Shown here: in pieces, positions 14,986 through 37,317 of the stretch
Layout of the letters: the number at the start of each line of letters is the position of its first letter
Numbering within the stretch: the stretch's first letter is position 1
Notes under the pieces: model-generated
The model's input: the letters and a program-made list of their open reading frames with translations, nothing else
The model's database searches: none
Told to the model about the DNA's origin: nothing
Program-made: the position numbers and the translations under genes
DNA from: Gammaproteobacteria bacterium
GTDB taxonomy: Bacteria; Pseudomonadota; Gammaproteobacteria; Steroidobacterales; Foliamicaceae
NCBI GenBank assembly: GCA_026708965.1
Contig: JAPOTY010000027.1
Span: 1-64,000 of the forward strand
Direction: 5' to 3'
Length of the DNA: 64,000 nucleotides

Positions 14986-15071
14986 TCGGCGCATCTAATG
15001 GATAGAGGCTAAGGCTTCGCCCGTCCGCAGGTGATGCTATGCTTATTCAATGCCGTTCACTGGGCTGTGAA

Positions 15072-16088
15072 ATGAAACCCACCCATTGTTTGCTGAGTGT
15101 TTCCTTGGCGCTCTCCGCAGCGCTAATTTCTGGCGGTTGCAATACAACGGGCGGCGTTGCCTCGCCGTCGGGCGGCCCTCCGGTATCCATGCCGTCATCT
15201 GGCGAAAGTTCCGGTTCGTCCGGCGGTTCGTCCGGCTCTCCGAGCGCGTCGGCAGGTTCCCCTGGCGTTTCGGTGGGTTCAATGGGCGGTTCATCCGGCG
15301 GGTCGGTGGGTTCTCCGAGCGCGTCGGCAGGTTCCCCCAGCGTTTCGGTGGGTTCAATGGGCGGTTCGTCCGGCAGTTCGGTGGGTTCTCCAAGCGCGTC
15401 GGCAGGTTCCCCCAGCGTTTCGATGGGTTCAATGGGCGGTTCGTCCGGCAGTTCGGTGGGTTCTCCAAGCGCCAGGGTAGGCTCTCCCAGCGTTTCAGTA
15501 GGATCGTCGGGCAGTTCACGGGGATCTATGGGCGGCTCGATGGGCTCATCGGCCGGCGGATCAGGCACGGCGCGCGGCGGGAGCGGAGCTGGCGACCTCG
15601 AAGGCGTTTTGCGTGAATCCATGGAGGGCTACGACCGCGAAATCGCTGGTGAGCGCGGTGCCATGGCTTCGTCCGGACAGGGAGCCGCCAGCGGTTCCGG
15701 CGGCATGGGCGGCATGATGGGCGGAGCAAGCGGCTCAGGCGGGCCGATGGTCACGATTCCGAATGCCTCCGGCGGCGGAATCGGCGGCGCCGGTGAAAAT
15801 TCAGGCAATGCCCGCACGGACGGCAAATCAGCGGGTGATGGCGGTAGCGAGGCCGGCGGTGGCGAAAGTGGCGGCGGCGGAACCGGTCCGCAGGAGGGCG
15901 ATGGCGGCGCGGCGGATGCCCGGCCGGAGCCGAAGGTCGAGATTCCCGAGGATATCGCCGAAGTTGCCGGCAGCGGAGGCCAGGTGGCGCGGCAGATCCG
16001 CGAAGCGGCGGAGCAGGAAGAGGATCCGCGCATCCGCGAAGCGTTGTGGGAGGAGTACCGCAAGCATATGGGGCTGAAAGCAAAGTGA
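15072..16088 (+). CDS. Ser/Gly-rich repetitive lipoprotein
   Basis: lipobox-like ALISGGC; 25-aa tandem repeats; conserved-looking charged C-terminus. Confidence 0.75.
   Translation: MKPTHCLLSVSLALSAALISGGCNTTGGVASPSGGPPVSMPSSGESSGSSGGSSGSPSASAGSPGVSVGSMGGSSGGSVGSPSASAGSPSVSVGSMGGSSGSSVGSPSASAGSPSVSMGSMGGSSGSSVGSPSARVGSPSVSVGSSGSSRGSMGGSMGSSAGGSGTARGGSGAGDLEGVLRESMEGYDREIAGERGAMASSGQGAASGSGGMGGMMGGASGSGGPMVTIPNASGGGIGGAGENSGNARTDGKSAGDGGSEAGGGESGGGGTGPQEGDGGAADARPEPKVEIPEDIAEVAGSGGQVARQIREAAEQEEDPRIREALWEEYRKHMGLKAK
15234..15533 (+). repeat. Four 75-bp in-frame tandem repeats (GSPSASAGSPSVSVGSMGGSSGSSV)
   Basis: repeat starts at 15234, 15309, 15384, 15459; exact 75-bp period, last copy diverged. 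Confidence 0.92.
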
Positions 16089-17290
16089 GAAAAACCAACG
16101 CATTTTTCGGCATGCTGGCCTGCGTGGCCATGCTGGCGGCATGCACATCGTCGCGCGAGGTGCAGTATATCGAGGTGCCTCTGGCGCGGGCGGAAACCGA
16201 TATCGCGCAGGAGCAACTGCTGAGCGTGGGCATTCTGGTTTTTGACGCGGGAGTGCCCGAGGATGTCGGCGAGCAGGAACTCAACAACCGGTTCATCTTT
16301 CCGGATATCCGCCGCGCGGAAGCGCGCTACATGCCCTATCATCTCAAGAACACGCTGGAATCGACCGGATTCTGGGGCGCCGTCAGCGTGCTGCCCGATT
16401 TCAGTCCCGTGACGGATATTCATATCGCCGCGCGGATCGACCATTCCGACGGCTATAGCGCGAAACTGCGCGTGGGCGCTTGGGACGCTTCCGGTCGCGA
16501 ATGGTTCGAGAAAAAGTATGAGATGGAGGTGGCCGAACAAGCTTATGTCCGCAATACCGGACCTGGCCAGGATCCGTATCAGAAAATCTACAACGAGATC
16601 GCGAACGATCTTCTCAAGGCCCGGGGCCAACTCAGCGATCGCGAGCTGCGGCGAATCCGCGATGTGAGCGATTTGCGCTACGGCCTCAGCTTGGTCCCGC
16701 AGGCTTTCGAGGGTTACTTGGAGCAGGACGGGGACGGGCGCTACCAAGTCAGGCGCCTGCCGGCCTCCGGCGAACCCATGGTCGCTCGGATGCGCGAGGT
16801 CCGGGAGCGGGAATACGCGCTGATCGATGCCGTCAACGAGCACTACGCCAACCTTTACTACGGGCTGAATCAAACCTATACGGACTGGCGGCGCATGGCC
16901 CGTGAAGGCCGCATGAGCTACGAGGAAATGCGCCGGTCGGCCAATACGCGCATGTTGCTGGGGGTGCTCAGCATACTGGGCGCCATTGCCTACGAGGCCA
17001 GCGGCGGCGATAACATGGGTGTAACGACCACTGCCGTTCAGGGCGGCTTTATGGGGATCCAGAGCGGCCTGAGCCGCCGCGAGGAAGCCCGCTTGCACGC
17101 CGAGGCGCTGCGCGAGGCGGGCGAGTCGTTCGAGTCCGAAGCCGAGCCGGTGGTGGTGGAGCTGGAAGGCCAGACCCGGCGGTTGACCGGGTCCGCCGAG
17201 GAGCGGTTTCGTGAATGGCGGCGCCTTTTGCAGGAAATCTACAGCCGTCAAACCGGCGCCTTGGACATGCCGGGCCTTGGGGAGCAATAG
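16085..17290 (+). CDS. Hypothetical lipoprotein
   Basis: GTG start overlaps upstream stop; lipobox CVAMLAAC; 402 codons. Confidence 0.7.
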   Translation: MRKTNAFFGMLACVAMLAACTSSREVQYIEVPLARAETDIAQEQLLSVGILVFDAGVPEDVGEQELNNRFIFPDIRRAEARYMPYHLKNTLESTGFWGAVSVLPDFSPVTDIHIAARIDHSDGYSAKLRVGAWDASGREWFEKKYEMEVAEQAYVRNTGPGQDPYQKIYNEIANDLLKARGQLSDRELRRIRDVSDLRYGLSLVPQAFEGYLEQDGDGRYQVRRLPASGEPMVARMREVREREYALIDAVNEHYANLYYGLNQTYTDWRRMAREGRMSYEEMRRSANTRMLLGVLSILGAIAYEASGGDNMGVTTTAVQGGFMGIQSGLSRREEARLHAEALREAGESFESEAEPVVVELEGQTRRLTGSAEERFREWRRLLQEIYSRQTGALDMPGLGEQ

Positions 17291-17365
17291 CGAACGGGGA
17301 CCTCAAGCCCTTATTGAGCCCTTAACAGGGACAGGATGCCCTCCCTTCTTGCGGTCCCTTCCGCC

Positions 17366-19675
17366 ATGACGAACCGAAAACAAGGAGAACTGCTGGCATC
17401 GCGCTACCGTCTGGTTCGCGAGCTGGGCGCCGGCGGGTCCAGTGAGGTTTGGCTTGCCGAGGATGTAGCCGCAGGCGCGCAGCTGGCGGTGAAGGTGCTC
17501 GCCGATGACCACGCCCGGCATCCGGCTTTGCTCGATCGCTTCCGCCGCGAATTTGATCTGGCGCAGTCCTTGGTTCACCCGGGCATCGCCCGCCCGATTG
17601 AGTTTCACTCGGAAGGCGACTGCCATTTCTTCACCATGCCCGCCTTTCCGGGCGGCTCTATCGGCGAATCGCCGAACAGGCCATGGAGCGAAAGCCTGCG
17701 GCGGCTTCTGCCGGTTTGCGACGCGCTGGCGCACGCGCATCGCAAGGGAGTGGTCCATGGCGATCTCAAACCGCGGAATATCCTGCTGGACGAATCCGGC
17801 GCTGCCCGGCTCACCGATTTCGGCGCCGCCCGGCTGACAGATGCCGAGCCGGACGGGCGTATCCGGCGAGCGGGCGGTTCGCTGGCCTATATGAGCCCGC
17901 AGCAGTGCGCGGGCGAACCTGCCCAAGCCAGCGACGATATCTATGCGCTGGGCTGCGTTGCCTACGAGTTGCTGTGCGGTTTTCCGCCCCATGCGCCGGA
18001 TATTAGCGAGGAGCGCATTCGCGCCGGGGCACCCGTTGAACCTGCGGCGCCCGAGGGGCTGCCGCCGCTTCCGGAGGCCTTGGCGGAACTCGTGGCGGCG
18101 ATGCTATCGCGCGACAAGGCGCGCCGGCCTGTAACGGCGCAGGCGGTAAGGGCTGGTTTCGAGGAGATCCTGACGGAATCCGCGGCGGAGGAAGGGCCGG
18201 CCCAAGCGTCTGCGATTGTCGCGCGCGCCCGCGCCGCCGACCGTTCGCCGTCGCCCGCGCGGCACAGGCGCCCGGGGGTTCCGGTCTGGCTGGCGTATGC
18301 GCTAGGCGGCCTGCTGCTGGTTGCCGCAGCGGTTTTGTTCCTGGTTTTGCCTCGAATGGTTGAGGAGCGCGCGGAGAGCCGGCCGGTTGCCGAGCGCATT
18401 GTTCGGGAGCCGGAGGAGGCGCCTCGCCCGGACATGCAACTGGTGCGGATGCAGCGGGACGCAGCGGATGAGGCGATGGGCGGAATGCTGCAGGATCGCA
18501 ACTACTTGGCCTCGCTGCGGCCGTCGCTGTGGTCGGGCGGCCTCTGGGAGTGGGCGCTCGAGGAGGAGCGGAAGGGCGACGATGCCTATCGGCGGCGCGA
18601 GTATCCGCAAGCGCGAGCCGCGTACGGCAAGGCCGGGGACATGCTGCGCGAACTGCGCGGCCAGGCGCCGGAGATCGGCCGCAACGCCTTGGAGGCAGCG
18701 TTGGAGGCGATCGAGTCGGGCGCTCAGGCTGGCGCAATGGCGGAGCTTGAGAAGGCCCGCATACTGCTGGGGGAAACCGATCCCGAGGTCCAATCGGCGC
18801 GCGCCCGGGCCGCTAGGCTTCCTGAAATCATGCAAGCGGTGGCTGCGGCCCGGGCCGCCAAGCGGGAAGGCAGCCTTGAAGAGCGGCGCGCCGCTTGGCG
18901 CGCCGTGCTGGATATTGATCCCGGGCGCACCTCGGCGCGCTCAGCGCTGGCTGAGGTGAATGCCGCCATCGAACGACGGCTTTTTGTCTCACGCATGTCG
19001 CGCGGCCATGCGGCCTTGGCGGAGGGGGACGTGGCGGTTGCCCGCGCCGCTTTCGAGGCGGCGCTGAAACAGCGCCCTGACGATCCGGTGCCAGCCGAGG
19101 CGCTGGCGGCGCTGGAGCTGGAGGAGCGTGGCCAGCGCCTAGCCCAATTGCAGGCGGCGGCTATGGCTGGCAAGTTTTCGGAAGATTGGCGCAAGGCTGC
19201 GGACAGCTACCGAGCAATGCTGGTGATCGATTCAAATATCGTCGCCGCGCAACGGGGGCTGGCTGAGGCGCAGCGTCGGGCGGGCCTCGATGACGCGCTG
19301 GAAAGCACCATTGCCAACAGCCGCGGGCTGAATCGAGACGATGCCTGGCAGCAGGGCCGAAGCCTGCTCGACGAGGCGGCCGGCATTGCGGCTCCGGGGC
19401 CGCGGCTGAGCGGTCAGATTGAGCGGCTGGACCAGACCCTGCGGGTGGCCGCCACGCCGGCTCCGGTGCAGCTGCGCTCCGATGGCTTCACCGAGGTCAC
19501 CATTTACCATGTCGGCCGCCTGGGGAGCTTCGCCAACCGCGTCCTTCAGCTCCGGCCCGGCGCCTATACGGCCGTGGGCACACGCAACGGCTATCGCGAT
19601 GTGCGCCGCGAGTTTGTCGTTGCGCCCGAAGGGCTTTCCGAACCTCTGGTGCTGATCTGCACCGAACCGGTCTGA
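17366..19675 (+). CDS. Membrane Ser/Thr protein kinase with extracytoplasmic repeat region
   Basis: GAGGSSEVWLAED, LAVKVL, HGDLKPRNILLDE, DFGAARLTD, YMSPQQ; TM WLAYALGGLLLVAAAVLFLVLP; helical repeats downstream. Confidence 0.93.
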   Translation: MTNRKQGELLASRYRLVRELGAGGSSEVWLAEDVAAGAQLAVKVLADDHARHPALLDRFRREFDLAQSLVHPGIARPIEFHSEGDCHFFTMPAFPGGSIGESPNRPWSESLRRLLPVCDALAHAHRKGVVHGDLKPRNILLDESGAARLTDFGAARLTDAEPDGRIRRAGGSLAYMSPQQCAGEPAQASDDIYALGCVAYELLCGFPPHAPDISEERIRAGAPVEPAAPEGLPPLPEALAELVAAMLSRDKARRPVTAQAVRAGFEEILTESAAEEGPAQASAIVARARAADRSPSPARHRRPGVPVWLAYALGGLLLVAAAVLFLVLPRMVEERAESRPVAERIVREPEEAPRPDMQLVRMQRDAADEAMGGMLQDRNYLASLRPSLWSGGLWEWALEEERKGDDAYRRREYPQARAAYGKAGDMLRELRGQAPEIGRNALEAALEAIESGAQAGAMAELEKARILLGETDPEVQSARARAARLPEIMQAVAAARAAKREGSLEERRAAWRAVLDIDPGRTSARSALAEVNAAIERRLFVSRMSRGHAALAEGDVAVARAAFEAALKQRPDDPVPAEALAALELEERGQRLAQLQAAAMAGKFSEDWRKAADSYRAMLVIDSNIVAAQRGLAEAQRRAGLDDALESTIANSRGLNRDDAWQQGRSLLDEAAGIAAPGPRLSGQIERLDQTLRVAATPAPVQLRSDGFTEVTIYHVGRLGSFANRVLQLRPGAYTAVGTRNGYRDVRREFVVAPEGLSEPLVLICTEPV

Positions 19676-19716
19676 TGACCGGCTTCTTCTGCCCGATGGC
19701 CGGTTGAGGCCGAGGC

Positions 19717-22137
19717 ATGGCGGCTGAAGTGATTCTCGGGCTGCCGGAAGGCGAGCGCGTTCTTCAGGCGGGTGATTTGCCCGTTCTTCTCGGCAGCGGC
19801 GCGGGTTCGCATATCCGCTTGCCCGGCCCGCCCTCCGCGCCTCCGGCGGCCAGCATCAATGTTCTCGATAACCGGGCGCTGGTGCAATGCTACGCGGGCA
19901 TTTCCGGCTTGCAACTGAACGGACAGGCCGTGACCGGCGCCCGCTGGCTCAGCGAGGGCGACCGTTTGTCCATCGCCGGGGCGGAAGTGACGGTTGAATC
20001 GGTTTCTCCGCAGGCGCTGCGGCTGATGGTGCGGTACTTGGCGCGGGCCTGGGATACCCGTCCGCCGGAGCTGGCCGACGAGATCGAATCGGGCGAATCG
20101 ATCCGCGCTCAAAGGCCCGCCGCCGATGCCCGGCCTGCGCGATCGCGCAAGGGCGGCCTGTGGCTGCGCGTGGCGGCGGGGCTGGCCCTCGCGGTCCTTG
20201 CAGCGAGCGCCATCTTCGTGTTTACCGCCGAAGGCGTTCTGATCGAGGTGGCGCCGCCGGAAGCCAACGTTGAAGTTGACGGAGCGCTGGTTGCCCCGCA
20301 TATAGGGCCGCGCTACCTGCTTTGGAAAGGCGAATACCGGGTGCGGGCGGCGCTCGAGCGGCATCATCCGCTCGATGAGCGCATCGAAGTGCTTGGCGGC
20401 GGAGACGAGGCGTTTCGCTTTGATTTGCGGCTTTTGCCCGGGCTTGTGGTGGTGGATAGCGTGGCCGGCGCGGAAATCCGAGTGGGGGGAATGGAAGGCG
20501 TTTTCGCGCCCGGCGAGGAAATCGCGCTGGAGCCCGGAACCTGGGCGCTGTCCATCAGCGCGCCCCGCTACAAGAACCTTGATATTCCGCTAACCGTGGA
20601 GGGCGGCGGCGAACGGGAGACCTTCGCGGCGCAACTGGAACCGGACTGGGCGGCGGTCACTGTGAGCAGCGAGCCCGCCGGCGCCGAGATTCGCTCGGAG
20701 AATAGGCTGCTGGGAACCACGCCCGCCACTGTGGAATTGCTGTCCGGCCAGCGCGTGCTGGCCTTTTCCCGGCCAGGGTTCGCGACCCACCGCGAAGAGC
20801 TGACTGTGGTGGCCGGTTCGCCGCAGGTGCTGCCTCTTGTGCGTCTCCAACCCGCGGCGGGCGTGCTTCGGGTGCTCACCGATCCCCCCGGCGCCAGCAT
20901 CACCGTGAACGGCGATTTTCGCGGCGGCACGCCGGCCACCGTGGAAGTGATCCCCGGCCGCGCCCAGCGGGTGGTGGTGGCGCGCGCAGGCTATGAATCG
21001 CAGGAACGCATCGTTACCCTGGCGCGAGGCGCCGAGCAAGCGCTGAACATCCGCCTTGAGCCGCGCCTGGGAACGATTCGGGTGCTGATCCAACCTGAGG
21101 GGGCGGCGGTGCTGGTGAACGGCGAGCCGGCGGGGCATGCTCCCATCGACCTGCAACTGCCGGCTGCCGAGCACGAACTCGAATTTCGGCGGGAAGGCTA
21201 TGTGGCCCAGCAGCGCAAAGTGGTGCCTCAACCCGCCTATCGGCAAGAAGTGGTGGTCGAACTGCTCACGCCGCAGGCGCATAGGCTGGCGCAGCAACCC
21301 AAGGAAATCGAAACCTCGCAGGGCGCCAGAATGGTGATGCTGTTTCCGGGCGAATTCGAGATGGGGGCGCCGCGCGGCTCGCAGGGATGGCGAAGCAATG
21401 AGGTGCTTCGCAAGGTGCGGATCACCAAGCGCTATTACCTAGGCGTGAAGGAAGTCACGAACCGCGAATTCAAGGCCTTTGCGCCCACTCATACCTCGGG
21501 CGCGGAGCGTTTTCGTGCGCTGGCCAACGAGTCCAGCCCTGCGGTGAATATGGATTGGCAGGCAGCGGCCGCTTTCTGCAACTGGCTGAGCTCGCAGGAG
21601 GGTTTGCCGCTTCAGTACCAGAGTCGAGCCGGCCGGCTTATTCCGGTGGCCGAGCCGGGCGCCGGATATCGGCTGCCCAGCGAGGCCGAATGGGTTTGGG
21701 CGGCGCGCTACCAGGGCGGCGGAGGCAGCTCGCGGTACCCTTGGGGCGAGCGAATGCCGCCGCCATCGCGCGCCGGCAACTACGCCGATCAGTCGGCCAG
21801 CGCTCTGGTAAGCAACGTGCTCGTGAGTTACAACGACAATTTCCCTTTTACCGCGCCGGCGGGCAGCTTTCCGGCCAATCCGCTCGGATTCCACGATCTT
21901 GGCGGCAACGCGGCCGAATGGATGGGCGATTACTACAGCGCGGATACGCTCTACCCCGGCGTGGAGGTCGATCCTCGGGGGCCGCAGGAAGGGCGCTTCA
22001 ACGTGATACGGGGCTCGAGCTGGCTGCACGGCACTCTGCGCGAACTGCGCTGGACGTTCCGGGATTTTGGCGCCGAGGAACGGGTCGATGTAGGATTTCG
22101 CCTAGCCCGCTATGCGGAGTTGCAGGCACAGGAATGA
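19717..22137 (+). CDS. Membrane protein with PEGA repeats and C-terminal FGE/SUMF1-fold domain
   Basis: TM at LWLRVAAGLALAVLAASAIFVF; repeated V...P.GA.I.VNG..RG.TPA.VE PEGA units; EMGAPRGS...YRLPSEAEWVWAAR...NAAEWMGD...IRGSSW...VGFRLA. Confidence 0.9.
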   Translation: MAAEVILGLPEGERVLQAGDLPVLLGSGAGSHIRLPGPPSAPPAASINVLDNRALVQCYAGISGLQLNGQAVTGARWLSEGDRLSIAGAEVTVESVSPQALRLMVRYLARAWDTRPPELADEIESGESIRAQRPAADARPARSRKGGLWLRVAAGLALAVLAASAIFVFTAEGVLIEVAPPEANVEVDGALVAPHIGPRYLLWKGEYRVRAALERHHPLDERIEVLGGGDEAFRFDLRLLPGLVVVDSVAGAEIRVGGMEGVFAPGEEIALEPGTWALSISAPRYKNLDIPLTVEGGGERETFAAQLEPDWAAVTVSSEPAGAEIRSENRLLGTTPATVELLSGQRVLAFSRPGFATHREELTVVAGSPQVLPLVRLQPAAGVLRVLTDPPGASITVNGDFRGGTPATVEVIPGRAQRVVVARAGYESQERIVTLARGAEQALNIRLEPRLGTIRVLIQPEGAAVLVNGEPAGHAPIDLQLPAAEHELEFRREGYVAQQRKVVPQPAYRQEVVVELLTPQAHRLAQQPKEIETSQGARMVMLFPGEFEMGAPRGSQGWRSNEVLRKVRITKRYYLGVKEVTNREFKAFAPTHTSGAERFRALANESSPAVNMDWQAAAAFCNWLSSQEGLPLQYQSRAGRLIPVAEPGAGYRLPSEAEWVWAARYQGGGGSSRYPWGERMPPPSRAGNYADQSASALVSNVLVSYNDNFPFTAPAGSFPANPLGFHDLGGNAAEWMGDYYSADTLYPGVEVDPRGPQEGRFNVIRGSSWLHGTLRELRWTFRDFGAEERVDVGFRLARYAELQAQE

Positions 22138-22547
22138 GGAAATTATCCGGCGTCATCACTGTTATCGGCCTCGGCCTCGGCCTTGCTTGGGCCGCCGGCC
22201 AGGCGGGCCGCTGGCTCGGGTTCCAGCCGCAGGATCGCTCCGCTGCGGAGGCGGAATCGCCCGGGGAGGGCGCGCTGCCCGGAACTGAATCCTCCCCGGG
22301 AAGCGGGGGCATTGACCCTGCGGGCAACAATGCCCCCCCGTCTTCCGACGCCGCAGCCCCTGATTCTGAAGCCGCAGGCGAAGATGCGTCCGATCCGCAA
22401 CCGGAGCTGTCCGCCGAGGTCGCCTCCATCGAAGAGGATCTGGCGCGCATTGAGGAAGCGCTGGGGAACGAGGAAGTGCTGGAGGAATTCACTCCGTCCG
22501 AGCCGCTTTCGGCAGACAACCCCGTCGTTTGGCCGACTGATATCTGA
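22134..22547 (+). CDS. Hypothetical, N-terminal TM, acidic tail
   Basis: ATG overlaps upstream TGA (ATGA); 137 aa. Confidence 0.6.
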   Translation: MRKLSGVITVIGLGLGLAWAAGQAGRWLGFQPQDRSAAEAESPGEGALPGTESSPGSGGIDPAGNNAPPSSDAAAPDSEAAGEDASDPQPELSAEVASIEEDLARIEEALGNEEVLEEFTPSEPLSADNPVVWPTDI

Positions 22548-22599: not shown

Positions 22600-24096
22600 C
22601 TAGCCGCCCGACAGCCGAATGGCATGATCCAACCCCAGTTTTTCCGCCAGCGCGCGCAGGCGGCGCTGCACGGTGTTTCCAACCAGTATTTGGCCATCCT
22701 CAGGTCCGTTCAGCGCCAGCGTCTTCGAGGTCCGCTTGAGACGAAACTGTCCGAGCACGCTCAAAGCCCCGCCCGAGATCGTGTAGGCAAGGCGCATGGC
22801 CAGTCCGGTCCCGGTCGCTTGGCGCTCTTCTTCCCTGCTGATCAGCTGGCGCAGGCCCAGCCGCTTGAGGCTCGAGCCCAGAGAGGCGTGCCGCGAGGCG
22901 ACGGCCAGCCCCAGCATCACCCGTTCGCGGTGATCGGCGCCCGTGAGCGGCATGCGCAGTATGCGGAGAAATACCTGCTCGGCGCGGTAATCGGGATGTT
23001 CGGACCAGCCGATATCGGACAGATGGCATGCAGCCAGCCGAAGCTTGCGCGGGGCCACGCCGTTGAGCGCCGGAGCAATCCATTCGGCCAGCAAAGCGCC
23101 GCCGGAGCCGCCGCGCCCCATGCGCCGCGCTGTGGTTTCGCATATCGACAAAAGCGGATCAATGTCCCGTTCCAGCGGAGGCAGGGCTTGATACAGGCAG
23201 CCTTCGCGCAATCCGTTGGCGGAAAACACGACTTGGCCGGCGCCAGTCCGCTGCAGCAGGCAGTCGATCACGGTTGCCGCAAACGGCAGCGATTCCAGCC
23301 TGTCCGCGCGCAATCCCTTGGCGGCTTCCAAGCGCTCTCGCGGCCAGCCGGACAGCGCGGAGCAAAAATCGCCGGCCGCGCGTGCGTCGAGCGCGTAGTG
23401 GTGAATCACGTGCAGCGGATAGCCCGTTTCATCCATGTGCAGGCGCGCCAGCGCCCGCCAGGCGCCCCCGACCAGGTACAGACATTGGTTCCGGGCCTGC
23501 CGCAGCCAATCCAGGGCCGCAAACCGGTCCGCAACCGCCTTGCGGCTCCGGGCAAGCGGTTCGGCGCGGTTTCGGCGCACTGTGCCGAACGGCAGGGAAA
23601 CGCTCTCGGCGACTCGGCCGCTATCGAGAAGAATCAGTTCCAGGCTCGCCCCGCCCAGATCGGCGGCCAGCCCGCTTGCATTGGGAATGGCGCTCACGAT
23701 GCCGGCAGCGGCTGCTTCCGCTTCGCGGGCGCCGGACAGCAGCTTGATATCAAGGCCGCACTGCCCGCGCGCTTTTTCCAGGAATTCCGGTCCGTTGCTC
23801 GCCTCGCGAACGGCCGCGGTGGCTACGGCATGGATATCCCGCACCCCCATTCGGGGGCATAATTGCGCGAAGCGGCGCAGGCTGTCCATCGCCAGGCCGA
23901 TCGATTTTTCCTCCATCCTGCCGCTGCGGTCCAGTTCCCGGCCCAGGCCGCACAAGACCTTTTCGTTAAAGATCGGCAGCGGCGCGCGTCCGCCGTTTTC
24001 GTACACCACCAGGCGCACCGAGTTGGAGCCCACATCGATCACCGCCACCGGCGCCTCGCCCGGGGCAGCGGGGCTGGTTCGCAGCACGCCTGGCAC
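22600..24096 (-). CDS. ppx: Ppx/GppA exopolyphosphatase family
   Basis: VAVIDVGSNSVRLVVYE; LAADLGGASLELILLD. Confidence 0.93.
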   Translation of the reverse strand: MPGVLRTSPAAPGEAPVAVIDVGSNSVRLVVYENGGRAPLPIFNEKVLCGLGRELDRSGRMEEKSIGLAMDSLRRFAQLCPRMGVRDIHAVATAAVREASNGPEFLEKARGQCGLDIKLLSGAREAEAAAAGIVSAIPNASGLAADLGGASLELILLDSGRVAESVSLPFGTVRRNRAEPLARSRKAVADRFAALDWLRQARNQCLYLVGGAWRALARLHMDETGYPLHVIHHYALDARAAGDFCSALSGWPRERLEAAKGLRADRLESLPFAATVIDCLLQRTGAGQVVFSANGLREGCLYQALPPLERDIDPLLSICETTARRMGRGGSGGALLAEWIAPALNGVAPRKLRLAACHLSDIGWSEHPDYRAEQVFLRILRMPLTGADHRERVMLGLAVASRHASLGSSLKRLGLRQLISREEERQATGTGLAMRLAYTISGGALSVLGQFRLKRTSKTLALNGPEDGQILVGNTVQRRLRALAEKLGLDHAIRLSGG

Positions 24097-24102
24097 GAGC
24101 GT

Positions 24103-26301
24103 TCAGACGGCGGCTTTCAATAGGGCGGGGGATGGCGCGTTTTCTTCAGCCGCGGCGCCCCCGTGTTTGGGAAAGAGTTCGCCCGGCATGGCGGGGCGCG
24201 ACTCGCGCAGCGCGCTTCCGCGCCCCGACAAGCTGGGATGGGTCATAAACCAGGTATGCGCGTTGAATGCCCGGGGGAGTTGCGGCAGGCGCTGGTAGGA
24301 GCCGTCCGGCTGCATTTCCCAGCTTTGCATGATGTCGAAGCGGTTGGCCATGAGAACCTGCTCCACCAGCTGCCTTTTAACGGTTTCGTTCTCGATCGGC
24401 ACCAGGGTTTCCACGCGGTTGTGCAGGTTCCGGGGCATCCAGTCGGCGGACGAAATAAAGACCTTGCTGGCGGTGGAGGGAAGCTTGTGTCCGGCGCCAA
24501 AGCAAAGGATGCGGGCATGCTCCAGGAACCTTCCAACCATGCTGCGCACGCGGATATTTTCCGAAAGCCCGGCGATTCCCGGGCGCAGACAGCAGATGCC
24601 GCGCACATAGAGCTCGATGGATACGCCTGCCTGGCTGGCCCGGTAGAGGCAGTCGATGATTTCCGGATCCACCAGCGCATTGAGCTTGACCCAGATTTCG
24701 GCCGGCCGGCCGGCCCGGGCATGCACGGTTTCCGCGTCGATCAGATCCACCAGCGTATCCTTCAGCTGCATGGGCGCGTAAACCAGCTTCTCCATGTCTT
24801 CGGGGGTGGCGTAGCCGGTCATGTAGTTGAACAGGCGGGCCGTGTCGCGGCCCAGCGCCGCGTCGCAGGTGAAGTAGCTTAGGTCCACGTAAACGCGGGC
24901 GTTGACCGGATGGTAGTTGCCGGTTCCGAAATGCGTGTAGGTGCGGAGCTTGCCGCCCTCGCGCCGCACCACCAGCGAAACCTTGGCGTGGGTTTTCAAT
25001 TCCACGAAACCGTACACCACCTGCACGCCGGCCCGTTCCATCTCTCGGGCCCAGCGAATATTCGCCGCTTCGTCGAAACGCGCCCTGAGCTCCACCATGG
25101 CGGTGACCAGCTTGCCGGCCTCGGCAGCCGCGATCAGCGCCTCCACGATCGGCGAATCCTCCGACGTGCGGTAAAGGGTTTGCTTAATCGCCACCACCGC
25201 CGGATCGGCGGTGGCGCGGCGCAGGAACTGCACCACCACGTCGAAGCTCTCGTAGGGGTGATGCACCACGAAATCCTTGGCGCGGATCGCGGCGAGAATA
25301 TCGCCGCCGTATTCCCGCACCCGCTCGGGGTAGCGCACGTTCAGCGGCTCGTGCTGCAGATCCGCCCGTTCCTCGGCGATGATCTGCTTGATATCCGCCA
25401 ATCCGAGCATGCCTTCGATATCGAACACATGGGCATGCGAGGCATCGAACGCCCTGAGCACGAATCTGCGGAAATTCTTGGGCATTCCGGCCGCCACTTC
25501 CACCCGGATCACACTGCCCCTGCGCCGCCGCAAAAGGGCGGTCTCAAAGGTGCGGACCAAATCCTCGGCTTCCTCGTCGATCTCCAGATCGCTGTCGCGG
25601 CTGATGCGGAATATGCCGTGCCCCAGTATCTCCATGCCAGGGAACAGGCGCCCGAAATGCCGGGCCACGATATCCTCCACGGCCACGAAGCGCAGCGATT
25701 TGCCGGGCACTCGAACGAAGCGCTCGATTTGCGGAGGAACCAGGACCAGGCCGTTGAATTCGCGCTTGTCCCGCGGCCGCTTGAGCCGCAGCACGTAAAC
25801 GAGGCAGCCGCTTTGAATGAACGGAAACGGATGGGCGGGATCCACGGCCTGAGGCGTGAGCACCGGAAAGAGCTGATCCTCGAACCATCGGGAAAGCCAT
25901 TCCCGGGCCTTTGCGCCCAGTTCCCGGGGGCCGGCCACGGCCACGCCCGCTTCGCGGCATTCGTCCAGCAGTTTTGCGCTGCGCTTCGATTGCGCCCTGA
26001 GCAGCTGTTTGACCTGCTGGCGGATGGCTTGCAGTTGCTCGCTGGGCTGCAGGCCGTCGGCGCTGGCTTGGGTGACGCCTGCAGCCACCTGGGCCATCAG
26101 GCCGGCCGCCCGCACCATGTAGAACTCGTCGAGGTTGCTCGCTGAAATCGACAGAAAACGCACGCGCTCCAGCAGCGGATGGTTGGCGTTGCCCGCTTCC
26201 TCAAGAACCCGGGTATTGAACTGCAGCCACGATAGCTCGCGGTTGATCAGCCGCCCGCCGGCGTTTTCCGCCGGGCCCAGCGGTCGTGGCATGGGTTCCA
26301 T
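24103..26301 (-). CDS. ppk1: Polyphosphate kinase 1
   Basis: NRELSWLQFNTRVLEEA, VVQFLRRATADPAVVAIKQTLYRTSEDSPIVEALIAAAEAGK, THFGTGNYHP. Confidence 0.96.
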   Translation of the reverse strand: MEPMPRPLGPAENAGGRLINRELSWLQFNTRVLEEAGNANHPLLERVRFLSISASNLDEFYMVRAAGLMAQVAAGVTQASADGLQPSEQLQAIRQQVKQLLRAQSKRSAKLLDECREAGVAVAGPRELGAKAREWLSRWFEDQLFPVLTPQAVDPAHPFPFIQSGCLVYVLRLKRPRDKREFNGLVLVPPQIERFVRVPGKSLRFVAVEDIVARHFGRLFPGMEILGHGIFRISRDSDLEIDEEAEDLVRTFETALLRRRRGSVIRVEVAAGMPKNFRRFVLRAFDASHAHVFDIEGMLGLADIKQIIAEERADLQHEPLNVRYPERVREYGGDILAAIRAKDFVVHHPYESFDVVVQFLRRATADPAVVAIKQTLYRTSEDSPIVEALIAAAEAGKLVTAMVELRARFDEAANIRWAREMERAGVQVVYGFVELKTHAKVSLVVRREGGKLRTYTHFGTGNYHPVNARVYVDLSYFTCDAALGRDTARLFNYMTGYATPEDMEKLVYAPMQLKDTLVDLIDAETVHARAGRPAEIWVKLNALVDPEIIDCLYRASQAGVSIELYVRGICCLRPGIAGLSENIRVRSMVGRFLEHARILCFGAGHKLPSTASKVFISSADWMPRNLHNRVETLVPIENETVKRQLVEQVLMANRFDIMQSWEMQPDGSYQRLPQLPRAFNAHTWFMTHPSLSGRGSALRESRPAMPGELFPKHGGAAAEENAPSPALLKAAV

Positions 26302-26377
26302 GATCGGAGTAGCATACAGGAGCCATGACAGTGCGGGCGTTCTTCGATCCTTATGCCGGGTGGCCGGAATCAGCGCC

Positions 26378-26920
26378 ATGACTCGCTTATGGCTGCTTCG
26401 CCACGCCAAGGCCGAGCCTTGGCCGGCGGATGACTTCGCCCGCGCGCTGGCGCCTCGCGGGCGCCGCAACGCGCCCGAGATGGGCCGCAAGCTGGCGGCG
26501 GCGGGATGCGCGCCCAATCGGGTGCTGTGCTCGGCGGGACGCAGGGCGGTGGAAACGATGTGCGGCGTGTTGCCGGCCTTGCCGGCGGATTTGCGCGTGG
26601 ACGTTCTGCGCCCGCTCTACACCTTCAGCCCCCAAGCGGTGCTGGGATGCCTTCGCAGGCTGCCGCGGGATTCGGGCGATCTGATGGTGGTGGGGCATAA
26701 TCCCGCGCTACAGGAGCTGGCGCTCTACCTGGCCGGATCGGGCGAGCCGGATGCTTTTGCGATCCTGCATGGGAAGTTTCCCACCTGCGCGGTGGCGGAG
26801 CTCGAGTTTTTGCCCGCTCCGCATGCCGCTGGCTGGAAAGAAGGCAGCGGGCGTCTGCGCCGGGTTCTGACGCCCCGGCCGCCCCGGCCTCGGCGGATGC
26901 CGCCGGAAGGAAAGCCATGA
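26378..26920 (+). CDS. sixA: SixA-like phosphohistidine phosphatase
   Basis: LWLLRHAKAE RHG motif; VGHNPALQELALYL. Confidence 0.87.
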   Translation: MTRLWLLRHAKAEPWPADDFARALAPRGRRNAPEMGRKLAAAGCAPNRVLCSAGRRAVETMCGVLPALPADLRVDVLRPLYTFSPQAVLGCLRRLPRDSGDLMVVGHNPALQELALYLAGSGEPDAFAILHGKFPTCAVAELEFLPAPHAAGWKEGSGRLRRVLTPRPPRPRRMPPEGKP

Positions 26921-27714
26921 GAAAGCAGTTGCCGGTCGAGTTCGTTTTCCAGTTATTCTCGCTGTTTCTCGCGGTGATTCTGGTGCATGCGATGTATGTG
27001 GCCTGGATCCGCCCGCAGGCCAGCGCCGTTCTGGAGGAGCAGCGCATCCGCTTGGAGCAGGACTCGGAATACGTGCCGGAGCGATCCCTCTACGTGATCG
27101 TGCGCGATTTCGAGCAGGAGGCCTGCCTGATCCTGGCGCTCTGGGCGCTGGCGATCATGGGCTACAAGGCCCGCGGGGCCTTGCGCGAGCGTTCGCTGCT
27201 GCAGCGGGACCTCCTGCCTCTGGCCGAGGGAATGCGGATCCTGCCGGAAGATACCCGCGAGCATGCGCGGCAGTTGCGGGCGCTGCCGCCTGGGGAGCAG
27301 CGGCTGCTTCTTCCGCGTGTTCTGCTAAGCGCATTGCAGCGGTTCGGGGCCACCGGAAATGTGCAGGACGTGTCGTCCGCCACCCAGTCGCTGGTCAATG
27401 CCGAAGCGGAGCGGCTGGAATCCGAGCTATCGATGATCCGGTATATCGCTTGGGCGATTCCGTCGATCGGCTTTATCGGAACGGTGCGCGGAATCGGCGA
27501 GGCGCTGACATTGGCCTACCGGGCCGTGGAAGGGGATATAAGCGGCGTGACTGAAAGCCTGGGCGTGGCCTTCAATTCCACCTTTTTCGCCTTGCTTGTC
27601 AGCATCTTCATTATGTTTCTGGTTCATCAGCTTCAGTTGCTGCAGGAGCGCCTGGTGTTCGAAACGGCAGACTACTGCGACGAACGGCTGATCAGGCGCT
27701 TGCAGGGCGACTGA
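26917..27714 (+). CDS. MotA/TolQ/ExbB-family proton-channel-like protein
   Basis: WAIPSIGFIGTVRGIGEAL and SLGVAFNSTFFALLVSIFIMFLVHQLQ; ATGA overlap with sixA. Confidence 0.85.
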   Translation: MRKQLPVEFVFQLFSLFLAVILVHAMYVAWIRPQASAVLEEQRIRLEQDSEYVPERSLYVIVRDFEQEACLILALWALAIMGYKARGALRERSLLQRDLLPLAEGMRILPEDTREHARQLRALPPGEQRLLLPRVLLSALQRFGATGNVQDVSSATQSLVNAEAERLESELSMIRYIAWAIPSIGFIGTVRGIGEALTLAYRAVEGDISGVTESLGVAFNSTFFALLVSIFIMFLVHQLQLLQERLVFETADYCDERLIRRLQGD

Positions 27715-27730
27715 ATTTCCGGCGGGCCGG

Positions 27731-29152
27731 ATGGCGCGGGTCGCCCTTGAGGTCAACGGCGCGGCGCTGATCGGCGCCGCCGAAGGCGGCGTGCTGTTCA
27801 ATGAGCCGGGGGTGGCTTTCGCGGAAAAGCGCCGGGTCCTGTTCGGCAAGCCGGCGGCGGACGCGGCGCGGCGCAACCCCGGGCAGGGCTACTGGAATTA
27901 CTGGGACCTGCTTTCGGAAGCGCCGCTGTCCAGGCCGGCCGGGAATCTGCGCACCTTCGCGGACTTGGCGCATGCCCACCTAGCCGAATTGTGGACCCGT
28001 TTCCGCAAGTCGGCGGAGGATATCGAAGGCGTCATCCTAGTGGTTCCGGCCGGCGCCGGCGATGATCGCTTGGCGCTGCTTCTCGGCATCGCGGAGGAGG
28101 TCGGCCTGCCAGTGGCTGGCTTGGTGGAGAGCGGCGTGGCCGCCGTGCGCGAAATCGCGTCCGGCAGCTCCTGCGTCCATATCGATGCCGACGGGGAACG
28201 CATTGCGGCATCGCGGCTTGATCTGCATGAGGGACGCATTTGCTCGGAGGAGTTGCTCTTCAATGGCCGTCCCGGCCTTCGGCATCTACGCGCGGCGGCG
28301 GTCGCTTATGTGGCCGGACGCTTTGTGGCGGAATCGCGCTTCGATCCTCTCGACCTGCCGGAAACGGAACAGCAGCTTGCCGAGCAGCAAGACGGCTGGC
28401 TGCGCAGCCTAGTGGCGCAGGGCGAGCTGAAGGTCGAAGTGAGCGGGGCGGCGATTCCGGCTTTGGCTAGGCTGCGCCGGGATGAATTCATGGCGGCAAT
28501 GGAGCGGCAGTTGGCGGCGCCTGCCAACCGGCTGCGTTCCTGGTGCGCCGCCCCCGGATCCGCGCTGGTTCGGCTTTCGGCCGCGGTGGCCGCCATGCCG
28601 GGCGTTCCCGAGGCGCTGGCGAGCCTGCTGCCGAAGGGCGTCGAGGCATTGCCGCCGGGGGCCTCGGCCCTTGGGGCGCTGGCCCGCGTGCCGGCGCTGC
28701 CGGCCGGCAAGGACCGCTACATGCTGCTCCGTTCCCTTGCGGCCAGCGATCCGCCGCAGGAAGCGCCGGCCGGCGCCGGCCCCGATCATCCCGGGGTTTT
28801 GGGCACTGCTGTGCCCGGGGGCGCGGAGGCGGCTGAAGGGGCGCTGGCGCCGACCCATCTGGTTCTTGGCGGGCGCGCCTGGCGCATCGACGAGCAGGGG
28901 CTGCGTCTTGGCTCCGCTCCGCAGCCGGGCGGCCTGGCCATCGCGCTGCCGCCGGAAGGCGGCGTTTCCCGCAACCACTGCACCGTGCTGCTGGAGAGCG
29001 GCCAAGCCTTGCTGCACGATCACAGCCGTTACGGCACGCGCCTTAACGGCGCTCCGGTGGCGGAATCAGCGCCGCTGAGAGGGGGCGACAGGATTGGCAT
29101 CGGCGCGTTGGAATTTCTTGTGATCCGTGAGGTGGAACGCGATGGCGCGTAG
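27731..29152 (+). CDS. FHA-domain protein with possible actin/HSP70-like ATPase-fold N-terminus
   Basis: C-term LRLGSAP...VSRNHCTVLLESGQALLHDHSRYGTRLNGAPV...LRGGDRIGIG FHA pattern; N-term GDDRLALLLGIAEEVGLPVAGLVESGVAAV. Confidence 0.75.
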   Translation: MARVALEVNGAALIGAAEGGVLFNEPGVAFAEKRRVLFGKPAADAARRNPGQGYWNYWDLLSEAPLSRPAGNLRTFADLAHAHLAELWTRFRKSAEDIEGVILVVPAGAGDDRLALLLGIAEEVGLPVAGLVESGVAAVREIASGSSCVHIDADGERIAASRLDLHEGRICSEELLFNGRPGLRHLRAAAVAYVAGRFVAESRFDPLDLPETEQQLAEQQDGWLRSLVAQGELKVEVSGAAIPALARLRRDEFMAAMERQLAAPANRLRSWCAAPGSALVRLSAAVAAMPGVPEALASLLPKGVEALPPGASALGALARVPALPAGKDRYMLLRSLAASDPPQEAPAGAGPDHPGVLGTAVPGGAEAAEGALAPTHLVLGGRAWRIDEQGLRLGSAPQPGGLAIALPPEGGVSRNHCTVLLESGQALLHDHSRYGTRLNGAPVAESAPLRGGDRIGIGALEFLVIREVERDGA

Positions 29153-30239
29153 GCCATTTCATATTTTCAGCATGTCGTTTCTCGACATCATCTCCTGCGG
29201 CTTCGGGGCCGTGGTGTTGTTTTTCGTGATCATCAACGCCCAGGTGCGCTTGCGTGCCGATGCTGAGCGCATCGATCTTCTGAGCGAGACCACGCGGCTG
29301 GAGGACGAAGTGCTGGAGGGCCGCAAGGATCTGCTCCAGATTCGCGGGGAACGCGATGAGCTGGAAGACCGCCGCGCCCGCGCGGCGGAGGAGCTGCGCA
29401 GGCTGAGGGAACGGCTCGCCGCCTTGCTCGCGGAGCTGGCTGAATACGAGCGGCTGGGAACGCGGAGCCAGGAGTCGGCCGAGAAGCTTCGCGCGGACGT
29501 GGAGCGGCTCCGCAACATGCAGCAGGAGCTCGAGGCGCGGATCGCCGAGTCGGAAGAGGGCGCAGGCCAGCAGATCAGGCAGTTCGAGGGCGCCGGTTCG
29601 CGCCAGTACCTCACGGGCATGCGGATGGACGGGGACCGGGTGCTGATCCTAGTGGACGCTTCGGCCAGCATGCTCGGACGCACCTATATCGACGTGCTGC
29701 GCTTCAGGCTGATGGATGAGGCGTTGAAACCGCGCGCCCCCAAGTGGCGCCAAGTGGTCAGCTCGGTCGATTGGATCACCACGCGGCTCGAGCCGCAGCA
29801 GCGCTTCCAGATCTATATCTACGGCGAGGGCTACCGCAGCATCCTGGACGACTCCGACGGCCAATGGCTGAGCGTTGCGGACGGAACCCGGGTTGGCGAA
29901 GCGGTCGAGGCGCTGAGCAACCACGCGCCGCAGGGCGGCACCAGCATGCATGCGGCGGTGCGGGCGGTTCGCTCGCTGGAGCCATCGCCCGACAACGTGT
30001 ACCTGTTGACCGACGGGCTGCCCACGCAAGGCGCCCGCCCGCCGTCGCGGGTCGGTTGGGTCGATCAGCGGGCCCGCTCGAGGCACTTTGAGCGCGCGGT
30101 GCGCGATCTGCCGCCCGGCATTCCCATCAACGTGCTGTTCTATCCGCTCGACGGCGACCCGGCGGCGACCGGCCACTACTGGATGATGGCTTCGCGCTCC
30201 CGCGGCTCATTTGTCAGCGTTTCCCGCGATTGGCCCTGA
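29142..30239 (+). CDS. VWA-domain protein with ExbD/MotB-like N-terminal TM helix and coiled coil
   Basis: FHIFSMSFLDIISCGFGAVVLFFVII; coiled coil; MIDAS DASAS and TDG; overlaps upstream gene by 11 bp. Confidence 0.85.
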   Translation: MARRPFHIFSMSFLDIISCGFGAVVLFFVIINAQVRLRADAERIDLLSETTRLEDEVLEGRKDLLQIRGERDELEDRRARAAEELRRLRERLAALLAELAEYERLGTRSQESAEKLRADVERLRNMQQELEARIAESEEGAGQQIRQFEGAGSRQYLTGMRMDGDRVLILVDASASMLGRTYIDVLRFRLMDEALKPRAPKWRQVVSSVDWITTRLEPQQRFQIYIYGEGYRSILDDSDGQWLSVADGTRVGEAVEALSNHAPQGGTSMHAAVRAVRSLEPSPDNVYLLTDGLPTQGARPPSRVGWVDQRARSRHFERAVRDLPPGIPINVLFYPLDGDPAATGHYWMMASRSRGSFVSVSRDWP

Positions 30240-32501: not shown

Positions 32502-34508
32502 CTAGTTTTCGGGCTGCTGGATGGTGACGAGTTGGCCTGCGGCCACGTTCTCCCGGGTCGTGGCGGCGCCGTCCGGCCATTCCACTGCAAGGTCCGCCTG
32601 TGTGCGGGCACCTAGCCCGAACAACTGCACCAGCGGGTTTTGCGAGGTGAAGTTGCTGCCGATGGTGATTTCCCGCATCTGATTCCGGCCGCCGGCCGTG
32701 AGCGTGATCCGGGCCCCGGCTGCGGCGGTATTGGGCGCGCGGCCTTCGAGCTTCACCTTCAGGTAGTTGTTCGCGCTGCTGTCGTTCCGCCATAGCGTGC
32801 CTGCGTTGTTTTCGTTGCGGTGCATTTGGAAGATATCGATATCGCCATCGTTGTCGAAATCCGCGCATACGATGCCGTGGCCGCGCTCGCTATCGGCGAT
32901 GCCCGCCTCTTCCGATATTTCCGTGAAGGCGCCCGCGCCGTCGGAGATGAACAGCCGGCTTGGGTCGGTATCGTATTTTTCGGACGCGAAGCGCTCCACA
33001 TGCACCCAGCCGTTGGTGTGGTACAGGTCCAGATGGCCGTCGTTATCGAAATCCGCGAAGCAGGAACCCCAGCCCCAGCCTCCGTCGCGCACCCCGGCTT
33101 GTTCGGTGGCGTCCGACAGCTCCCCGCCGTCATTGCGGTACAAGCGGTTGCCATGCTTGAATATCTGTTCGCCGTTGCCGTCCGGATCGCTCCAGATGGA
33201 GCTGACGAACCAGTCCAGGTCGCCGTCGTTGTCATAGTCGCCCACCGCCGCGCCCATGCCGTTGCCGTCCACGACCACCTCGCGGTTGGTGGCATCGCGG
33301 AATGTGCCGTCGCCCTCGTTGACGTAATACTTCGAGGTGAGGAAATCGGCGGCGATCACGAGGTCGGGATAGAGGTCGTCCGTGATCCGGGCGAAGACGG
33401 GGCTGAAGGTATAGTCGTGGCCGCTGCCGCCGAACGACCCGACGGGATTGTCCTCGATGATGGTTTGCGCGATGCCCGAGGGCAGGCTCACGTCGGTGAA
33501 TCGGATCACGCCGTTTTCGCTGTCGTTGCGCCATAGGCTCTCGGTGCTGTAGGGCCAGGGTCGGCTCTCGTCGTCCTTGGGGCGCGGCGTGCCCCAATGC
33601 GCCAGGAACAGGTCCAAGTCGCCGTCGAGATCGTAATCGCCGAAGGCTGATGAAATCGTATAGCGGGCGTTGATGCTTTCCAGCCCTGAGCCGTCGGTTG
33701 CGTCGGTGAAGGTGCCGTCGCCGTTGTTGCGGTAAACAATCGCCCGGTCGCCCATGACGCCGCCAAGGAAAAGATCGATATCGCCGTCGCCGTCCATATC
33801 GGCGAATCCCGGCCCGCTGTGCCGGAAGCTGCCGGATGCGGCCCGCGGGTTGGCCACGCCTGCCTCCTCGGCCCGGTCCTCGAAGGTATTGTTGCCAAGG
33901 TTGCGGTACAGCAGGTTGGGGCCGAGGTCGCCGCGCAGCACGAACAGGTCCACCCGGCCGTCGTTGTCGTAGTCGCCGGCCGCCACGCCGCCACCGAATT
34001 CGCGCACATCGGCATCCTGCGGCAGGCTGCTCCCGCCGGGCGATTCGGTGTAGCCGCGCTCGAATGCGATGCCGGAACCGGGGGTGGCGTCGGCGAAAGT
34101 AACGCTCGCCACGATGTCGTTGACCGCGATCGTCACCCGGGCGGTGGCGGAGGCCGTCCCGTCGCCGGCGGTTATCGTGACCTCCACCGATATCTCGGCT
34201 TCGTGGTCCAGCGATTCGTCGGCCTTGAGCCTGAGCTCGCCGCCGCTGATCTCGAAGCGTTCGTCGCTGACGGTAAAAGCAACCGAATCGCCATCCGGGT
34301 CGCTGGCTGCGACCGAAGTGATCGCCGCGCCCGGCTGGTTCTCATCGACCGACGCGGTGGAATCGACCGTGATCGAGGGCGGTCGGTTGGTCAGCGCGGG
34401 GGCGGACTCCGGGGAGCCGCCGCCGCCGGATCCTCCTCCGCACGCGGCAAGCAGCGCTGCGGCCAGCGCAGGCGCCGGCCATGCGCCGGTCCGTGGTTGT
34501 GCAGGCAT
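32502..34508 (-). CDS. FG-GAP/VCBS-repeat lipoprotein, CRTAC1-like with ASPIC/UnbV C-terminus
   Basis: ALAAALLAAC lipobox; repeated DYDNDGRVDLF, DMDGDGDIDLF, DFDNDGHLDLY; C-term LGARTQADLAVEWPDG. Confidence 0.9.
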   Translation of the reverse strand: MPAQPRTGAWPAPALAAALLAACGGGSGGGGSPESAPALTNRPPSITVDSTASVDENQPGAAITSVAASDPDGDSVAFTVSDERFEISGGELRLKADESLDHEAEISVEVTITAGDGTASATARVTIAVNDIVASVTFADATPGSGIAFERGYTESPGGSSLPQDADVREFGGGVAAGDYDNDGRVDLFVLRGDLGPNLLYRNLGNNTFEDRAEEAGVANPRAASGSFRHSGPGFADMDGDGDIDLFLGGVMGDRAIVYRNNGDGTFTDATDGSGLESINARYTISSAFGDYDLDGDLDLFLAHWGTPRPKDDESRPWPYSTESLWRNDSENGVIRFTDVSLPSGIAQTIIEDNPVGSFGGSGHDYTFSPVFARITDDLYPDLVIAADFLTSKYYVNEGDGTFRDATNREVVVDGNGMGAAVGDYDNDGDLDWFVSSIWSDPDGNGEQIFKHGNRLYRNDGGELSDATEQAGVRDGGWGWGSCFADFDNDGHLDLYHTNGWVHVERFASEKYDTDPSRLFISDGAGAFTEISEEAGIADSERGHGIVCADFDNDGDIDIFQMHRNENNAGTLWRNDSSANNYLKVKLEGRAPNTAAAGARITLTAGGRNQMREITIGSNFTSQNPLVQLFGLGARTQADLAVEWPDGAATTRENVAAGQLVTIQQPEN

Positions 34509-34655
34509 TGTCTGTTCGGTTCCGGATCGCTTGCTTCGCCCCGTAAGGGTTAGGGCGAGCGAATCTAACACATTGGCCGCGCCGCGCGCTTCTGTTGTCG
34601 GCTGGAATCGGGGTTAAGGGGTTAAGATGGTCGGCGCAATCATAGGAGCGCCGTA

Positions 34656-35924: not shown

Positions 35925-35934
35925 TCCCTCGGCC

Positions 35935-37197: not shown

Positions 37198-37317
37198 TCG
37201 TGTTCTCCCCGAAGCGGCAGTGCCGCAAGCGCCGAAACAACAGAACGGGCGCTCGCAGCCCGCTATTGTAAGAGTCGGCTGCCGCGTCCTTTCAGCTTGG
37301 CGCAATATGCTGCGGGC

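Follow-up and report, generated by a model that had tools for sequence, protein, structure and literature searches.

A split gammaproteobacterial operon that probably encodes an ion-driven trans-envelope motor with paired VWA heads

Introduction

A channel gene of the MotA/TolQ kind, followed by genes for an FHA protein and for a VWA protein with one TM helix, raises the question of what machine these proteins build and how many further parts belong to it. An earlier note on the window (the whole stretch of 64,000 nucleotides analysed here) had proposed a new ion-driven stator with a VWA effector, gated by FHA and phosphorylation and encoded in one operon with SixA. The stator part of this proposal fits our results, given the ExbB/TolQ fold, the TM Asp and a cluster free of ExbD/TolR, whereas its novelty does not hold for the core. 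In PMC12204202 (Mol Biol Evol 2025 msaf138), TM-VWA pairs with a stator Asp, termed TPH-vWA, were predicted as B-subunits of a TolQ-like motor; the family seed is from Idiomarina loihiensis, and independent AF3 models of such pairs place the Asp within the pentamer lumen. What is new here is the VWA2 partner and its relocation, the larger gene cluster, the exclusion of sixA and the Hsp70-NBD fold of the FHA protein. Our literature search found neither a description of the wider machine around the TM-VWA/TolQ core nor a phenotype or functional study for any member. We consider it likely that the operon of a trans-envelope motor driven by ions and tipped with VWA1:VWA2 heads has been split, with its second half at this locus, and a housekeeping role is the most likely one for this motor.

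Results

The sequence and its ORFs bore out the coordinates and overlaps claimed earlier for sixA, the ExbB/TolQ-type channel, the FHA protein and the TM-coiled-coil-VWA protein (Table 1). The channel starts within the ATGA at the sixA stop (26917), 16 bp separate its end from the Hsp70/FHA gene, and the VWA1 ATG (29142) lies inside the end of that gene, with an overlap of 11 bp. An in-frame GTG occurs upstream at 29127; because relatives begin at the MARR of the ATG, the latter was taken as the start. The upstream kinase, FGE and small-protein genes (17336-22547), the Hsp70-like domain and a VWA2 elsewhere in the genome were absent from the earlier note. The ppx, ppk and sixA genes split the operon only in the window's genus, and sixA does not lie beside the channel in other genera; SixA was therefore rejected as a subunit and is best described as a genus-specific neighbour.

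Table 1. Features of the split operon and its neighbours, with the basis of each assignment
Feature	Coordinates	Strand	Basis and remarks
lipoB	15039..16088	+	Ser/Gly-rich predicted lipoprotein, conserved C-terminal block; profile matches, lipobox by eye
lipoA	16046..17290	+	Predicted lipoprotein, ~400 aa, invariant lipobox Cys; start codon uncertain
TM Ser/Thr kinase/TPR protein	17336..19675	+	Pfam Pkinase 1.2e-35, TPR, TM scan
FHA-like/PEGA/FGE-fold protein	19717..22137	+	Pfam FGE 3.6e-39, PEGA 9.5e-39
Small tail protein	22134..22547	+	Sequence; same position and tail in relatives; TM scan
ppx (exopolyphosphatase)	22600..24096	-	Genus-specific insertion, outside system
ppk1 (polyphosphate kinase)	24103..26517	-	True start nearer 26300; genus-specific insertion, outside system
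sixA-like phosphohistidine phosphatase	26378..26920	+	TIGR00249 E 2e-12, below curated cut-off; outside conserved system
Motor channel subunit, ExbB/TolQ fold	26917..27714	+	Pfam MotA_ExbB E 1.8e-14
Hsp70/FHA protein	27731..29152	+	FHA E 1.3e-8; AF2 and Foldseek for Hsp70/actin-like NBD fold
VWA1, stator-B-like subunit	29142..30239	+	VWA_2 E 4e-4, below Pfam curated cut-off; alignment of homologues
VWA2, partner of VWA1	G000:C19:79955-80941		Another contig of the same genome; outside window

A survey of co-occurrence covered 148 genomes from the order. Of these, the same 124 carry VWA1 and VWA2, 121 carry the channel and 120 the FGE protein, and genomes without the VWAs had neither channel nor FGE protein. 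The few genomes with one part missing (G019, G053, G064 and G070, and two for FGE) probably reflect incomplete assemblies. Judged by these profiles of presence, inheritance in the order is essentially all-or-none for the channel, the FGE protein and the two VWAs. The system is present across 84% of the order and persists in streamlined genomes of 1.1-1.6 Mb. The order kinase-FGE-channel-(Hsp70/FHA)-VWA1-VWA2 recurs in ~100 loci, and likewise in further families of the class; lipoA and lipoB mostly accompany the cluster. VWA2 directly follows VWA1 in nearly all relatives. In the window's genus it might have been thought lost, but the gene was found on another contig and is kept in 9/9 genomes.

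Three features place the channel with ExbB/TolQ, as had been claimed: its MotA_ExbB domain, its fold and its pore Thr residues. Foldseek comparison of the AF2 model (pLDDT 90.8) gave TolQ/ExbB as nearest fold (TM up to 0.60/0.71), and Thr189 and Thr222, one on each pore helix, were invariant in an alignment of 58 sequences; a profile search against the PDB returned no solved homologue at E 0.01. The combination of a MotA/ExbB channel and an unusual B subunit also recalls the Zorya anti-phage defence motor, to which the channel shows a distant likeness in fold (8vvn_D, TM 0.51/0.57) and a very weak ZorA profile match (E 0.029). We regard a defence motor of this type as extremely improbable and rejected it, since the long ZorA channel tail, the OmpA-like domain of ZorB and the nuclease/helicase partners (ZorC/D or ZorE) are all missing, and the core-like presence described above, streamlined genomes included, is unlike that of a mobile defence gene.

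VWA1 consists of a TM helix, a coiled coil of ~110 residues, a VWA domain with MIDAS and an invariant C-terminal DWP; its periplasmic part is thus coiled coil and VWA, rather than a TolR/ExbD or OmpA-like domain, and its profile matched essentially only coiled coils in the PDB. The MIDAS proposed earlier is indeed intact, with DxSxS in 98/98 VWA1 homologues, and a MIDAS is present in all VWA2 sequences too. The TM helix (SMSFLDIISCGFGAVVLFFVII) is real and nearly invariant, and its Asp (D15) occurs in 98/98 VWA1 homologues, with the corresponding helix Asp of VWA2 in 88/88. VWA2 is an obligate partner of VWA1 and carries the same Asp helix; a VWA1-VWA2 heterodimer is the probable form of the B-subunit. 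The proposed stator-like Asp fits a B-subunit that carries a VWA head. The profile comparison with ExbD that the earlier note had named as a possible refutation speaks neither for nor against kinship: hhalign of the TM segment against ExbD gave 2-3% probability, equal to unrelated control helices, in a comparison of 38 columns that has little power.

That result, together with the several ExbD/TolR genes in these genomes and another VWA family of side-binding type described in PMC12204202, would agree with VWAs that act as side-binding force transducers or passive anchors, as TonB or TolA do, with an ExbD/TolR from another locus as the partner of the channel. We think this improbable. A PF02472 search of 10 genomes found no ExbD/TolR within the cluster; each lay tens of kb or more away or on another contig, and in the window's own genome ExbD adjoins its own ExbB. 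Furthermore, the acidic residue is invariant in both VWA helices, channel and VWAs are co-inherited, and the AF3 models cited above set such helices in the lumen.

Further proteins are encoded with the channel and the VWAs. The FGE protein has a degenerate FHA-like N-terminus, a TM helix (152-170), four PEGA repeats and an FGE-fold domain. Using a placement of the catalytic motif that we take over from human FGE, we found H/S and E at the conserved columns and no Cys among the residues listed there (84 sequences). A catalytic FGE was rejected on this ground, and the domain is, by its residues, a non-catalytic pseudo-enzyme. Downstream of it, the small protein is N-terminally anchored or secreted, with an acidic/Pro linker that leads to a conserved tail at the C-terminus (...FTPSEPLSAD...PTDI); the relatives L039, L042, L047 and L049 have it in the same place and with the same tail. 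As for the lipoproteins, lipoB is the ancestral first gene of the cluster, with profile matches upstream of it in 64 loci, class-level relatives included, and lipoA matched in 67 loci, with E values as low as 1e-144 among further families of the class; Pfam and PDB profile searches found no relative of lipoA.

The remaining proteins carry the kinase, FHA and Hsp70-like modules. The kinase protein retains its catalytic residues (K53, H141-x-D143, N148 and D161FG) and continues through a TM helix (319-337) into periplasmic TPR and a PEGA-like end; its gene does precede that of the FHA protein in the ancestral operon. The Hsp70/FHA protein combines a cytoplasmic Hsp70/actin-like NBD fold (AF2 pLDDT 89.7) with a C-terminal FHA domain, and Foldseek gave 594 PDB matches at E<=0.001, the best being the DnaK NBD (E 2.3e-15). 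DxGTT and DLGGG, which we take to be the Hsp70 phosphate motifs, are degenerate, being replaced by NDAGL/DxxLH. The FHA domain does not, overall, look like a phosphopeptide binder: the canonical GR Arg occurs in only 8/56 homologues, and although Ser-x-x-His is retained, the Asn of NG(T), before the Gly, is Tyr/Phe in most of the 56.

An operon that unites a kinase with intact motifs, an FHA domain and an Hsp70-like module could also be read as a sensor, in which VWA/MIDAS and FGE/PEGA detect a ligand in the envelope, ion flow serves as the gate and kinase, FHA and Hsp70 relay the signal inward. We give this reading a low probability, as the kinase domain is missing in many homologues (several of the relatives tested) that retain the motor, the FHA lacks its phosphate-binding Arg, and the FHA protein is absent from a whole streamlined lineage, where motor, FGE and VWA genes stay. 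Since the Arg is lost in 48/56 homologues and relatives can do without the kinase or the FHA protein, phospho-gating would be lineage-specific at most, and motif columns, FHA residues and kinase-less relatives alike weaken the earlier idea of phosphorylation as the core gate.

Discussion

The comparisons show that, as far as sequence can tell, the channel, the two TM-coiled-coil-VWA proteins with their invariant Asp and the PEGA/FGE membrane protein are co-inherited, and that the cluster also includes a TPR protein (often kinase-fused), two lipoproteins and the small tail protein. In the trans-envelope motor that we favour, five channel subunits would surround one VWA1:VWA2 heterodimer, and ions passing channel Thr189/Thr222 and the VWA Asp would rotate pentamer against dimer. 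The coiled coils would bring the MIDAS heads toward the peptidoglycan and outer membrane, where they may pull or turn a partner, be it the FGE/PEGA protein, the tail of the small protein or the lipoproteins. By analogy with the T9SS PorKN ring, the FGE-fold domain, being non-catalytic, may serve as a scaffold, and, more speculatively, the kinase, FHA and Hsp70-like modules may form an optional cytoplasmic regulatory layer.

By its described features, the TPH-vWA family is among the closest known systems: it too has a TolQ-like gene with a TM-tethered VWA gene as neighbour, it shares the lack of TolR/ExbD in the cluster and the TM Asp, and its VWA genes likewise come in heterologous pairs, which are tandem in relatives of the window's genus and separated but kept within it. 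It differs in that the kinase/TPR, FHA/PEGA/FGE, Hsp70/FHA, small-tail and lipoprotein genes go unmentioned for the family in the text of PMC12204202, and in the split of VWA pair and operon seen here. TolQR-Pal and ExbBD-TonB have the nearest channel fold, but the present cluster is without TolA/TonB and Pal as well as TolR/ExbD. The AglRQS gliding motor of Myxococcus also joins one channel subunit to two unlike B-type subunits with a TM Asp in each (PMC9389320); AglQ/S, however, have TolR-like domains, as against VWA heads on long coiled coils with kinase, FGE and lipoprotein partners.

The T9SS PorLM/PorKN system (GldLM/GldKN) couples an ion-driven 5:2 motor of the inner membrane to an FGE-fold protein that sits at the outer membrane and is non-catalytic (PMC12421860); a similar pairing is proposed here. 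The differences are that the present FGE protein is anchored in the inner membrane and has PEGA repeats and that the B-subunit head is VWA instead of Ig-like; moreover, the GldL/GldM NCBIfam profiles matched neither channel nor VWA. It is conceivable, although we lean against it, that the machine corresponds in Gammaproteobacteria to the drive train of the T9SS and is a 5:1:1 motor whose obligate VWA1:VWA2 axle runs through the peptidoglycan and drives a PEGA/FGE scaffold and outer-membrane lipoproteins, with kinase/FHA/Hsp70-pseudo-ATPase control added in some lineages.

The ion-driven 5:2 motors form a small and well-studied group, and the present one occurs almost throughout a gammaproteobacterial order. 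Its parts list (a heterodimeric VWA axle, a non-catalytic FGE scaffold, lipoproteins and optional phospho-control) makes a testable model, and the move of VWA2 to another contig offers a natural test of whether a heterodimeric B-subunit is required. If the model is true, the combination of motor and FGE-fold protein known from the T9SS would exist outside Bacteroidota.

Co-inheritance of the channel, FGE protein, and VWA pair

VWA1, a TM-coiled-coil-VWA protein, was found in 124 of the 148 genomes of the window's order, and VWA2, a second protein of this layout, in the same 124. Among these, G019, G053, and G070 yielded VWA1 only as fragments or a cross-hit, most likely because of assembly gaps. 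The channel (121/148) and the FGE protein (120/148) occurred in the same set, and neither was found in any of the order's genomes lacking the VWAs. A profile recovered VWA1 in 21 of 274 genomes sampled across the class, the majority of the 21 outside the order. The strongest evidence that these four genes form a single machine, in which VWA1 and VWA2 are obligate partners, is that they are inherited all-or-none and that one has survived relocation. A lineage of ~1.1-1.6 Mb genomes (L042, L064, L071, L072, L074, L075, L113, and L125) has lost the Hsp70/FHA gene and retains the kinase, FGE, channel, and both VWAs.

Ancestral gene order and its interruption

Neighborhoods were compared in 20 relatives, in 80 named records, and in 14 loci of the class that belong to other families. 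Most of the named records are gammaproteobacterial MAGs, and some carry the labels Deltaproteobacteria, Desulfobacterales, or Acidobacteria. Together these neighborhoods reveal a single ancestral order, which runs lipoB, lipoA, kinase/TPR, PEGA/FGE, small protein, channel, Hsp70/FHA, VWA1, VWA2. These genes are present in the window too, except VWA2, which is missing from its usual place. The earlier note had assigned the channel, FHA gene, and VWA1 to an operon with sixA; sequences and ORFs of all four genes, and their junctions, match that description exactly. By Pfam, the channel is MotA_ExbB, the middle protein FHA, and the last matches weak VWA models; SixA matches TIGR00249 below the cut-off. 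In the window's genus only, ppx, ppk1, and the sixA-like gene split the motor operon, and the interruption is identical in same-genus records L058, L059, and L063 and single-contig genome L149, so the "sixA operon" reflects a local rearrangement. A search with VWA2 located it in 9/9 genomes of the genus. The second VWA2-like copies of two members showed one in-frame stop with one query and, in G013 and G052, none with another.

Two other arrangements were seen. In L094, labelled Myxococcales, lipoB-lipoA-kin-FGE lies downstream of VWA2 and on the other strand, making two units, and two large genomes of one family (L050, at G022:C9, and G008:C132) carry a second complete, divergent kin-FGE-channel-VWA1-VWA2 cluster (~30% identity).

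Features in the window and related genomes
Feature	Position	Strand	Remark
ExbB and two ExbD genes	6196-7434	minus	ordinary; ~20 kb from cluster
Small protein	22134-22547	plus	
ppx-ppk and sixA-like gene	22600-26920	ppx, ppk1 minus	between small protein and channel
FG-GAP/ASPIC-type repeat protein, then two TlpA/thioredoxin-like proteins	32502-37305	opposite orientations	by eye
VWA2, window's genome	G000:C19:79955-80941		no cluster neighbors
Second VWA2-like copy, L150	G052:C1:270342-271376		more divergent
Second VWA2-like copy	G013:C45:175344-176339		more divergent

Stator-like features of the channel and VWA pair

Channel identity to the window's copy is 49-95% across the family, the exception being the divergent L050 (32%), and Thr189 and Thr222, on its two conserved pore helices, are invariant in the alignment. 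Its AF2 model (pLDDT 90.8) is closest in the PDB to ExbB/TolQ, with ZorA and MotA next. The helix Asp and the MIDAS motifs occur in all 98 VWA1 and 88 VWA2 sequences; VWA1 ends in an invariant DWP. No ExbD-family gene lay inside the cluster in ten genomes searched. Several relatives, like the window, have an ExbD pair 20-60 kb away, possibly an old synteny.

PMC12204202 describes TM-VWA genes in heterologous pairs adjoining tolQ-like genes, without tolR/exbD, their helix having a conserved Asp and being modelled inside the pentamer. The window locus fits this description. Among partners, the text of that paper names no kinase, no PEGA or sulfatase protein, and none with Hsp70 or FHA domains. 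When the VWA helix was compared directly with ExbD by profile, the result did not separate it from control helices, so VWA as B-subunit rests on genetics, the Asp, and published AF3 models, and not on detectable homology.

Accessory proteins and probable role

The window's kinase has intact catalytic motifs; Pfam found no kinase domain in five homologues, namely L044 of the order and four that belong to other families within the class, TPRs being retained in four of the five and unmatched in the fifth. In the FGE protein an FHA-like N-terminus precedes a single TM, which is followed by PEGA repeats and an FGE-fold domain that lacks the catalytic Cys pair. This domain resembles FGE enzymes (E 3.5e-16) and also PorK (E 1e-10), whose repurposed FGE fold serves in the ring that the PorLM motor drives (PMC12421860); the parallel is mechanistic and does not count as evidence of descent. 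The FHA protein has an Hsp70-NBD fold (AF2 pLDDT 89.7; DnaK NBD match, E 2.3e-15) with degenerate nucleotide motifs, and its FHA domain has lost the phosphate-binding Arg in 48/56 homologues. LipoA has no Pfam or PDB relative. In the small protein the linker is variable and the extreme C-terminus (F.PSE.L.AD...P.DI) conserved, a candidate docking peptide.

The comparisons establish the system's composition, conservation, obligate pairing, invariant residues, and folds. It would probably form a 5:1:1 assembly, ion driven and exerting force at the peptidoglycan/outer membrane. Its core presence in the order, which extends to genomes of 1.1-1.6 Mb, argues for an envelope housekeeping role rather than defense.
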